Origin: a candidate division WOR-3 bacterium
GTDB taxonomy: Bacteria > Hydrothermota > Tepidihabitantia > Tepidihabitantales > DTDR01
Length of the DNA: 35,107 nucleotides
Direction of reading: 5' to 3'
Assembly: GCA_039801725.1 (NCBI GenBank)
Contig: JBDRVE010000017.1
Span: forward strand, 1-35,107
In this document: positions 20,493 to 23,154 of the stretch, one piece after another
Position numbering within the stretch: position 1 is the stretch's first letter
How the letters are laid out: every line of letters begins with the position of its first letter
Position numbers and translations under genes: made by a program
The notes under the pieces: generated by a model
Seen by the model: only the letters and a program-made list of their open reading frames with translations
Told to the model about the DNA's origin: nothing
The model's database searches: none

Positions 20493-21023
20493 TTACCAAA
20501 TAAAAGTAATCTTTTTTATTTCATAATAGTCACCGGTTTGAAATTTTGAAAAATAGATACCGGGATTAACCTTTTGCTGAAAGTTATTTTCGCCTTGCCA
20601 GTTGACTGAGTAGATACCAGGTTTTTTATTTTCATTAATCAATATCTTTATAATCCTTCCCATTCGGTCATAAATAAAAAGTTTTACATTACTTTGATTT
20701 TTAAGGGAAAAAAGAATTCTTGTTTTATGAAAGAAAGGATTAGGAAAGGGGTTATATAATTTTGTTTCTAATTGATGGGGATTTGGTAATTCTTCCTTTT
20801 CCTTAATACTTACTTGTGGCTCTCTTATCCAGAAACCAATAAAACCAAGATAATTAGGGTTTGTTAGATAGCTGATAGCATTTTGGGAGAGAGAATTTTT
20901 TGCTTGATAATTGGTATTAGTTAAATTTTTTCCATCGCTGTTTATTGTATACCAATCACAATAATATTGAGAAAAAGCATAAGAGATAAAAAGAAGATAA
21001 AGAAAGATTTTTAGTTTACTCAT
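20493..21023 (-). CDS. Small secreted protein with C-terminal sorting/FlgD-Ig-like domain
   Basis: A 176-residue exported protein: signal peptide (about 1-18, ending A-F-S-Q), a middle of about 70 residues without a recognised fold, and a C-terminal ~90-residue domain. That domain reads L-Y-N-P-F-P-N-P-F, I-L-F-S-L, V-K-L-F-I-Y-D-R-M-G-R-I-I-K, N-P-G-I-Y-F-S-K-F-Q-T-G. This is the pattern of type IX secretion type A sorting domains and FlgD-like Ig domains found through the FCB group. Its ATG overlaps the stop of the large repeat protein by eight bases, so the two are made together. It could be a partner or anchor for that protein (inference). Only 26 bases separate it from the converging bamA gene. 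Confidence 0.75.
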   Translation of the reverse strand: MSKLKIFLYLLFISYAFSQYYCDWYTINSDGKNLTNTNYQAKNSLSQNAISYLTNPNYLGFIGFWIREPQVSIKEKEELPNPHQLETKLYNPFPNPFFHKTRILFSLKNQSNVKLFIYDRMGRIIKILINENKKPGIYSVNWQGENNFQQKVNPGIYFSKFQTGDYYEIKKITFIW

Positions 21024-23043
21024 TCTTCCTCCCCTTTTCTTTTTCCCTTAACAATTTTCTCCATTCCTCTTTTGCTTTTTGGGATGTTTCGTATTCTTTT
21101 AATATACCAAAGGCAATCCAATCAAAAGAGATATTAGTATTTTCTCCCCAGGTAGGAATTTTCTTTAAGATAATTTCAAAACCGTTTGTTTTAATTCTGC
21201 TTACATAAAGTAAACCAGTAGGTTCCTCTTTCGGAGTAACAACAATTCTAACCGGAATGTCAGTTCTAATATTTTGGGAAAAGACTTCCGGAAAAGAGAT
21301 TTCGGCTTTGCCATTATTGAGTCTTCCGCTACCAGCAGTAATTATTGATAAGTCAGGACTGATAATACAAGGTGCTTCTTTATCATCCCAAAGACCACCA
21401 GTATACCAACCACCAGTCGCATAACCACGACCATAGGCTTGGATAGCAGTATCAGTCGCAACATTGCCATAGGCATGGGCATAAAGTCCTTCGGCTCCGC
21501 TATTACTGGCAAAAAAATCACCGCCTGCTATGTCTCCGATAGCATACACACCGTAACTGCCGGCATTATAAACAGTTACTCCATTAAGCCCAGCCTGGTT
21601 AATATGTAAACCATAATTTGTAGCATTGTCAATATAGATACCATAAAAAGAAGAATTGGAAATACGGACACCAGAACTGGCTCGATTGATTATTATCCCA
21701 TTTGAGGCAGTATCAATATAAATACCATTAGAGGTACTATCAATATAAACACCATTAAGAGATGCTCGATTTATTCCTAAACCAACACTTGTTCTCTGAA
21801 TATTTAAACCTGTTGGTGCATAGCGGATATAAATACCGGTATTGGCACTGTCAATTTCAAGACCAAAATTGGCACTGTCAATAAAGACACCACTTCCTGA
21901 ACAGCGATATACCCGCAGACCGTTATTCCCTGCTCGGGAAATATTTACAGCATAAATAGCATTACCAATGTTAATTCCTCTATTTGCGTTGCCAATATAA
22001 ACACCATCAATTGTACTGTCAATATAGCTACCATAATTACTTGCCCGGTAAACCCTTATACCTGTTTGGGCGCGATTTATATTAATACCATAAATAGCAG
22101 CACTGTCGATATTGACACCAGTATAAGTTATCCGACCAATAGCAAGACCAGTGCCGACATATCCAACCGAAATACCGGCACTAAAGGCAGTATCAATTGC
22201 TAAACCATGACCAGCAGGATTTTTAATCCGCATAATTGCATTAGGATAACTAACATTTCCACTGAGAGTACAAGGTTTAAAAATATCAACTCCTCTTATT
22301 GAATTATCAGTAATTTTTGAGGAATTGACAACTTCGTTAGCAATTAATGGGTTTGGATAATTACCAGTTAAATCGCCACCGGCTGGACCAGTTGGTGGTA
22401 AGCCAGTAATAGCAACATTAGCGGCATTGGTTATCTGTCCTTTTTCATTTACAGTGATTTGGGCAACATTTGTCGCATCACCATAAGTGCCAGCAGTAAC
22501 ACCGGTAGCAGATAAATCGTCAGCAATAATTGTGCCGTCTTGAATTTCATCGGTATTTATTGGTGGACTAATTGGTCTTTGGATTTGGGCATTTAAGGCA
22601 TAATTGGCGCTATCAGCTTTTCTTGATAGATAAGAGTAGGCATTACTAACAATTCTTATTCTTGGTATCATTGGTGAATGAGGGTTTACTTGCATTTCTA
22701 AATAACAATTGCCATCTATCGGAAGAGAAGAAATTGGCACAACACTTCCTAAAAGGACATTAAAAAGCCCAGATTGGGTTTGAACATTTTGGGTTTCGTT
22801 CCAAAAAGCAATGCCACCAGTAGGAGAAGTAAATAAGCGAAAAGTTATTGAATAAATAGAATCTAAAACTGGTTGACCATTAATATCAGTAAGTTTTCCT
22901 TGAAAATTAAGCATCAAGGGAATAGTAATTTGGTCGGTATTAGGAGAGATAGGTTTTAAGGAATTTAAAGAACTGAGTGTCGGAGGATTAGCAAAAACAA
23001 TAAAAAAGAGAATTGATAAGAAAATTAAAGAATTTTTAAACAT
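21016..23043 (-). CDS. Large secreted protein with tandem 9-10-residue repeats
   Basis: A 675-residue exported protein. Signal peptide about 1-20. Residues ~43-145 form the domain seen at the start of many surface or tail-fibre-like proteins (L-N-F-Q-G-K-L-T-D-I-N-G-Q-P, G-L-F-N-V-L-L-G-S, N-A-Y-S-Y-L-S). A Gly/Asn/Thr-rich linker (~165-260) has G-G-D-L-T-G-N-Y-P-N-P, known from fibre proteins. Residues ~280-505 hold about 23 short repeats of the type G-[VIL]-x-I-[DNR]-x-A-x-x. A Gly/Ala-rich zone (505-550) and a final beta domain (about 560-648: P-V-R-I-V-V-T-P and T-N-G-F-E-I) follow, then a charged helix. AAGGGGG precedes the ATG. Probably a surface fibre or adhesin; function unproven. Confidence 0.75.
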   Translation of the reverse strand: MFKNSLIFLSILFFIVFANPPTLSSLNSLKPISPNTDQITIPLMLNFQGKLTDINGQPVLDSIYSITFRLFTSPTGGIAFWNETQNVQTQSGLFNVLLGSVVPISSLPIDGNCYLEMQVNPHSPMIPRIRIVSNAYSYLSRKADSANYALNAQIQRPISPPINTDEIQDGTIIADDLSATGVTAGTYGDATNVAQITVNEKGQITNAANVAITGLPPTGPAGGDLTGNYPNPLIANEVVNSSKITDNSIRGVDIFKPCTLSGNVSYPNAIMRIKNPAGHGLAIDTAFSAGISVGYVGTGLAIGRITYTGVNIDSAAIYGININRAQTGIRVYRASNYGSYIDSTIDGVYIGNANRGINIGNAIYAVNISRAGNNGLRVYRCSGSGVFIDSANFGLEIDSANTGIYIRYAPTGLNIQRTSVGLGINRASLNGVYIDSTSNGIYIDTASNGIIINRASSGVRISNSSFYGIYIDNATNYGLHINQAGLNGVTVYNAGSYGVYAIGDIAGGDFFASNSGAEGLYAHAYGNVATDTAIQAYGRGYATGGWYTGGLWDDKEAPCIISPDLSIITAGSGRLNNGKAEISFPEVFSQNIRTDIPVRIVVTPKEEPTGLLYVSRIKTNGFEIILKKIPTWGENTNISFDWIAFGILKEYETSQKAKEEWRKLLREKEKGRKNE
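21529..22206 (-). repeat. Coding repeat array: about 23 units of 9-10 residues
   Basis: Covers residues ~280-505 of the large secreted protein. Units start with Gly, then hydrophobic-x-Ile, then Asp/Asn/Arg-x-Ala/Ser, for example G-V-Y-I-D-S-T-S-N, G-I-Y-I-D-T-A-S-N, G-I-I-I-N-R-A-S-S. Alternating hydrophobic residues and a fixed Gly suggest a beta-solenoid in which each unit is one strand and one turn. The DNA is diverged between units, so the array is old rather than recently expanded. Confidence 0.75.
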
Positions 23044-23119
23044 TTTTTTTACCCCCTTGATATCCTTTGCACCTAAAGATATCCTTTGTCGTTTTAGGCT
23101 CGGTGCCGCCGATAAAACT
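23044..23119 (-). promoter_or_regulatory. Structured mRNA leader of the large secreted protein gene
   Basis: About 75 bases of leader follow the predicted start near 23119. On the minus strand the 11-mer CAAAGGATATC occurs twice (complements at 23078-23088 and 23059-23069; spacing 19). CCTAAA (23093-23098 complement) pairs with TTTAGG (23072-23077 complement) to form a 6-bp stem whose 15-base loop holds the first 11-mer. The second 11-mer abuts the AAGGGGG ribosome site (23052-23058 complement). The first part is GC-rich (GGCGGCACCGAGCC) in an otherwise AT-rich spacer. It may be a regulatory leader; I could not match it to a known riboswitch class. Confidence 0.5.
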
Positions 23120-23125
23120 TTCTAA

Positions 23126-23154
23126 AATTTAAACTAAAAATATTTTTATGTCAA
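23126..23154 (-). promoter_or_regulatory. Promoter of the large secreted protein unit
   Basis: On the minus strand: perfect TTGACA (23149-23154), 17-base spacer, TAAATT (23126-23131). This is the same -35/-10 pair as the promoter at 1895-1923. Confidence 0.65.

Follow-up and report, generated by a model that had tools for sequence, protein, structure and literature searches.

The window, i.e. the whole stretch of 35,107 nucleotides that was analysed, comes from a candidate division WOR-3 bacterium and contains a fibre gene and a downstream companion gene; all window features described below lie on the minus strand. The fibre gene (P0001, 21016..23043) was defined by its open reading frame and translation and by its membership in a phylum-wide family, and is present in one copy in the home genome. 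It encodes a protein of 675 amino acids in which a signal peptide is followed by a N-terminal domain of the mosaic adhesive trimer (MAT) type, a linker, a short-period repeat shaft, a lectin-like tip and a charged C-terminal helix. The signal peptide (approximately residues 1 to 18, MFKNSLIFLSILFFIVFA, 22990..23043) was read by inspection of the sequence as K/N and then a long hydrophobic stretch, and its position is the same in relatives. A first-pass annotation of this DNA had described a secreted protein with a fibre-type N-terminal region, and this reading is supported. The GGDLTGNYPNP segment to which it had also drawn attention is present (residues 223 to 245, 22309..22377), but its resemblance to DUF5907 (PF19264) reaches just 14 bits, under the cut-off of 27; 22 of 64 relatives carry it as well. 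The charged C-terminal helix (residues 655 to 674, 21022..21081) was identified in AF2 models, and K/R/E-rich C-terminal tails are present in several relatives of the fibre. None of the curated Pfam families matched the fibre above its cut-off, and a search for a T9SS sorting domain (Por_Secre_tail) on the fibre returned no match.

The companion gene (P0002, 20493..21023) was delineated from its open reading frame and the junction sequence and encodes 176 amino acids. Its start codon precedes the stop codon of the fibre gene, resulting in an overlap of 8 nt. In its product, a signal peptide is followed by a conserved module (about 50 residues) and by a sorting domain of T9SS type A.

Upstream of the fibre gene, a promoter-like site (TTGACA-17-TAAATT, 23126..23154) matches the consensus at 10 of 12 positions and constitutes weak evidence for a promoter, as such sites number near the chance expectation. 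In the leader (23044-23120), CAAAGGATATC occurs twice and one stretch is rich in GC. A riboswitch in this region (approximately 23044-23120) was considered and rejected: there is no Rfam match, the fold z is -0.9, and the sequence is unique in the genome and was not found in the leaders of relatives. Riboswitch families were also not found in 17 relative loci.

The short-period repeat shaft

The shaft (residues 280 to 507, 21523..22206), recognized by its periodicity and unit profile, comprises 24 units of 9 or 10 residues; window positions 21529-22206 correspond to residues 280 to 505. Units 1 to 12 start at residues 280, 290, 299, 309, 319, 328, 338, 347, 356, 365, 375 and 385, units 13 to 24 at residues 394, 403, 412, 421, 431, 440, 449, 458, 468, 478, 488 and 498, and the spacings between the 24 starts are 9 or 10 residues, with no others. 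About 23 units of 9 to 10 residues had been proposed initially, and the repeat is real. At a lag of 9 residues the self-identity is 0.235, compared with 0.094 expected (z = 7.2) and a highest value of 0.175 in 2000 shuffles. There are also 23 G-h-x-h motifs, whereas shuffles gave a mean of 6.5 and a maximum of 16. A second method, a chain detector, joined 23 units of the fibre into one regular 9/10 chain, and on shuffled versions of the whole fibre family it returned chains of 3 to 6 units at most.

The unit profile derived from 13 relatives reads G (78-90%) - V/I/L - Y/x - V/I - D/N/x - N/S/x - A/S/T - x - x - (D/N/x), and the initial unit motif, G-hydrophobic-x-I-[DNR]-x-[AS]-x-x, is better written as G-[VIL]-x-[IV]-x-x-[A/S]-x-x-(x). 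Units of 10 residues predominate across these 13 relatives and units of 9 residues are the minority; the present fibre is unusually rich in the latter. At the DNA level, only two short and weak 27-nt duplications are visible in the array, which indicates that the units are old and diverged and did not arise by recent expansion. In relatives, the shaft directly precedes the lectin-like tip and contains about 7 to about 39 units. In a comparison of repeat number within the genus, neither of the same-genus genomes matched a shaft-tip query; one of them has fibres of the family with other shafts. The longest array seen, with about 39 consecutive short units, is found at L044:1268-4078 (plus strand). 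A short-period shaft with a variable number of units would be a new modular rod.

The array was initially interpreted as a solenoid, which for a monomeric adhesin would mean that each unit of 9 to 10 residues forms one face of a single-chain coil. The regular G-h-x-h-x-x-A/S period, with its inward pattern of hydrophobic and small residues, is compatible with such a coil, and known repeat families offer no contrary match: Pfam has no match to shaft and tip of 22 relatives, and a profile search of PDB sequences with the shaft produced chance hits only. Neither Pfam families nor PDB sequences account for the repeat. Two AF2 models, in which pLDDT is about 80 to 88 over much of the array, nevertheless draw no DSSP strands within the chain, although with a pTM of only 0.37 to 0.41 these models are of moderate confidence and the absence of strands is negative evidence. 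AF2 is biased towards solenoids and produces them confidently even for meaningless repeats (PMC11795689), so the missing strands argue mildly against a single-chain solenoid. The likeness of the tip to the trimeric feet of phage fibres, described below, points in the same direction. In a unit-order test of three units per coil versus interleaving, the largest excess similarity was observed at four units and not at one or three; this result is ambiguous, but outward positions showed no excess similarity at three units. In view of these observations the solenoid claim is not supported, and we regard a monomeric coil as rather improbable.

The shaft is more readily pictured as an interleaved trimer with strands paired between chains. 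A comparable structure is the triple-stranded beta-helix of T4 gp5, whose chain is unable to fold apart from the trimer (PMC4576200). Like gp5, the WOR-3 shaft has a short repeat with Gly and an inward aliphatic residue, and it would likewise be built from a strand plus a turn and form a rod between domains. The two differ in their repeat, which in gp5 is an octad VxGxxxxx and in the WOR-3 fibre a 9- to 10-residue G-h-x-h-x-x-A/S unit, and in length: gp5 has 23 strands, whereas one relative of the fibre reaches about 39 units. By its period and motif, the shaft is not of the gp5-type VxGxxxxx octad kind.

The lectin-like tip

The tip domain (residues 531 to 650 with strands at 565 to 650, 21094..21453) was identified with a type-A HMM and with Foldseek. 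Residues 565 to 650 are well predicted in two AF2 models (pLDDT mostly 82 to 95), and the strands drawn there agree with the beta-rich C-terminal domain of the first-pass annotation. Foldseek matches in the PDB include the cyanophage Pam1 tailspike, SLL-2, AP22 gp53, the R1 and R2 pyocin fibres, the Helix agglutinins (HPA), discoidins, and the LKA1 and phi297 tailspikes; the best E-value is only 1.2e-3, with probabilities near 1 and up to 1.00 for the leading matches. Against a viral structure library, phage tail fibres and proteins annotated with an "H-type lectin domain" were retrieved with E-values down to 1e-6. By sequence, no Pfam family, including the H-type lectin family, was found in any of 22 relatives. 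From the modelled structure, the tip is predicted to adopt the discoidin/H-type-lectin jelly-roll fold, as in the feet of R-pyocin and AP22 fibres. Apart from Pam1, these are also the proteins that DALI retrieved for the trimeric foot of R-pyocin (PMC6363177). A trimeric, lectin-like receptor-binding foot is therefore the best reading of this domain. No sugar-binding residues were identified in the tip; binding of a sugar would be in keeping with the predicted fold.

With R-type pyocin fibres and gp53 of phage AP22 (PMC6363177, PMC6116203) the fibre thus has in common a predicted jelly-roll foot of the discoidin/H-type-lectin kind, placed C-terminally after a shaft, and the set of structural neighbours of that foot. 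In contrast, the pyocin shaft is a helix-plus-turn rod without sequence repeat (PMC6363177), and the WOR-3 fibre is a Sec-exported host protein outside any particle that has no sequence match to either fibre. Lectin-like tips also end Bacteroidota proteins, e.g. of Fluviicola and Aquimarina, mostly without a MAT-type N-domain, and one Yanofskybacteria protein (L129, L132-L140).

The likeness of tip and shaft to phage tail fibres in structure searches, together with a match of phrog_36881 to residues 163 to 212, could indicate that the gene is the remnant of a prophage and encodes a phage or tailocin tail fibre. A signal peptide and a T9SS companion are not in line with this origin, and the neighbouring genes are housekeeping genes of the host (ClpC-like, BamA-like, RNase HII, GlmS-like and glycine cleavage). 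Matches to the fibre are, moreover, spread through the phylum, where 66 of 147 genomes contain them and a single genome has as many as 16, and one IMG/VR scan with peptide patterns confirmed no relative. On the host neighbourhood and the phylum distribution we reject a prophage origin of the fibre and assign it a very low probability.

The MAT-type base domain and its mosaic family

The N-terminal base domain (residues 39 to 148, 22600..22929) was delimited with a family HMM and is homologous to the N-domain of Bdellovibrio MAT proteins; its AF2 pLDDT is about 80 to 96 over most of residues 41 to 130. The relevant NCBIfam model, NF053851, represents this domain in the MAT proteins of Bdellovibrio and has a curated cut-off of 60 bits. 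In hmmscan, it matched the whole fibre with an E-value of 7e-4 (19.5 bits) and the isolated N-domain with an E-value of 4.3e-5 (23.4 bits); these scores are below the cut-off, and the fibre is therefore not filed in the Bdellovibrio MAT subfamily. All 40 family N-domains tested were matched at E <= 0.01, with a best E-value of 9.5e-15, and the homology is consistent over the first half of the model; a Zixibacteria relative is matched too. On the basis of these profile matches, the fibre belongs to a MAT-type N-domain superfamily that is broader than NF053851. A search of the whole genome with NF053851 yielded nothing at E <= 0.1 although the protein is matched by hmmscan, and is probably less sensitive. 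A profile search of PDB sequences with the N-domain gave no match.

MAT proteins consist of a signal peptide, a base, a fibre and a S74 or other tip, in this order, and were described as prey-recognition devices of predatory Bdellovibrio (PMC10769870). The WOR-3 family shares with Bdellovibrio bacteriovorus MAT the signal peptide, a conserved beta-rich N-domain of about 110 to 130 amino acids, a fibre region and a tip at the C-terminus that can be exchanged, as well as the occurrence of many paralogues per genome in relatives and of S74-tipped and non-S74 members within one family. The present fibre differs in its phylum, its scores under the NF053851 cut-off, and the short-period shaft and lectin-like foot, which are not represented among the six solved MAT tips.

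Within the WOR-3 family, the N-domain is the constant part, while shafts and tips are exchanged. The 64 fibres with complete ends carry lectin-like (24), "IDHPLDP" (21), S74 chaperone (12) or other (7) tips, and PF13884 confirmed the S74 domain in two fibres, one of which also has a MAT N-domain. Exchanged shaft elements among these 64 fibres include YadA-head-like GGGxxNxAxG repeats (23) and GGDLTG segments (22). A constant base combined with variable and exchangeable tips of S74 and non-S74 type is a feature of MAT fibres, and judged by its domain composition the family has this feature. YadA-type trimeric autotransporters offer a further comparison, because some relatives carry the GGGxxNxAxG head-like repeats instead of the short-unit shaft; the array described here is of another type, and the C-terminus of the fibre lacks a beta-barrel translocator domain. 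The 9- to 10-residue shaft with the same N-domain and tip is also present in Zixibacteria (L117, L126). The presence of a MAT-type base across an uncultured phylum suggests that mosaic fibres are in general use among bacteria.

The IDHPLDP tips carry the motif IDHPLDPxNKxLxHxxVESPDM...WxVTGxRqD and form, among others, the C-termini of L042, L049, L050, L148 and L152; two of these tips were scanned against Pfam, with no match. At L111, L112, L109 and L081, two to four fibre genes stand in tandem together with one or two companions, which suggests local duplication and tip swapping.

The T9SS companion and its probable role in fibre display

The companion contains a N-module with the pattern Y-x-C-x-W ... 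I-G-F-W (residues 18 to 65, 20829..20972), which is conserved across 28 companions, and a T9SS type A sorting domain (residues 93 to 172, 20508..20747), which matches TIGR04183 with 30.8 bits at a cut-off of 23; PF18962 matches 24 of the 28 companions. In the home genome, about 50 sorting domains exceed the cut-off, and a homologue of SprA is encoded as well (290.9 bits at a cut-off of 200). A companion start lies within 100 nt downstream (<=100 nt) in 34 of 64 fibres, and 48 of 63 candidate companions are located directly 3' of a fibre ORF, figures that are not genome-wide rates because the sampling was centred on fibre loci. The other 15 include three sorting-domain-only matches, three at contig starts, and four behind a fibre of another tip class or behind a broken frame. 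For nearly half of the fibres there is no companion this close, so that the companion is either dispensable for some fibres or acts in trans. In two cases (L044:4081-4557 and L076:335-928), the N-module is followed by a dockerin and there is no sorting domain. Thus, the attachment module of the companion is exchangeable, being mostly a T9SS sorting domain and in two proteins a dockerin, as would be expected if the function resides in the N-module and the C-terminal part serves only for its attachment.

A dedicated chaperone gene downstream of the fibre gene is common among phage fibres. With this precedent, the fibre could be as we propose while its companion is a folding or secretion chaperone, or merely a co-expressed independent T9SS protein. 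The roughly one half of fibres without an adjacent companion would fit this alternative. On the other hand, the companion bears an exported surface-sorting domain that in two cases is swapped for a dockerin, an attachment module, while the N-module is kept, and a cytoplasmic chaperone would need neither. We therefore consider a role other than anchoring unlikely, and favour a companion by which the fibre is carried to, or anchored at, the outer surface.

The MAT paper does not settle what holds the N-domain at the surface, and the sections of it that were consulted describe no counterpart of the T9SS companion (PMC10769870). A linked, surface-sorted companion is a concrete candidate for this partner.

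Taken together, the locus probably encodes a secreted, trimeric and lectin-tipped mosaic surface fibre that has an interleaved beta shaft of short period and whose display is aided by a T9SS-sorted companion. The signal peptide would direct export of the fibre chain by Sec, and the MAT-type N-domain would form the base near the cell surface. The 24 short units would build the rod, each contributing one beta strand and one turn, and three chains probably wind about one shared axis, in which case strands pair between chains and not within one. The jelly-roll tip probably brings the three chains into register and binds a glycan on the surface of another cell or of a substrate. The translationally coupled companion would supply the T9SS sorting signal missing from the fibre itself, and most likely holds the fibre at the outer surface via its conserved N-module. 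Of this picture, the repeat, the N-domain homology, the exchange of shafts and tips, the linkage to the companion and its sorting domain are shown by the analysis and the tip fold is predicted, whereas the trimer, the interleaved shaft, glycan binding and anchoring are inferred. A more specific version, which we put forward tentatively, is a two-part system in which a MAT-type trimeric fibre, whose shaft is a long triple beta-helix of 9- to 10-residue units, is displayed by a dedicated T9SS- or dockerin-sorted companion bound to its base domain and holds other cells or substrates. If this were true, an uncultured phylum would hold cells or substrates with triple beta-helix shafts longer than that of T4 gp5.

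The first-pass annotation had suggested a new surface fibre or adhesin architecture. Mosaic fibres of the MAT-like or phage-like kind are already known, but the repeat module, a MAT-type base combined with this tip, and the T9SS companion linked to the fibre, to which that annotation had not referred, appear to be new. In the open-access papers searched, no description was found of the shaft module, of a MAT-type base with this foot, or of a surface-sorted partner. The home genome has a single mosaic fibre alongside its roughly 50 T9SS sorting domains over the cut-off, whereas many fibres are encoded in relatives.
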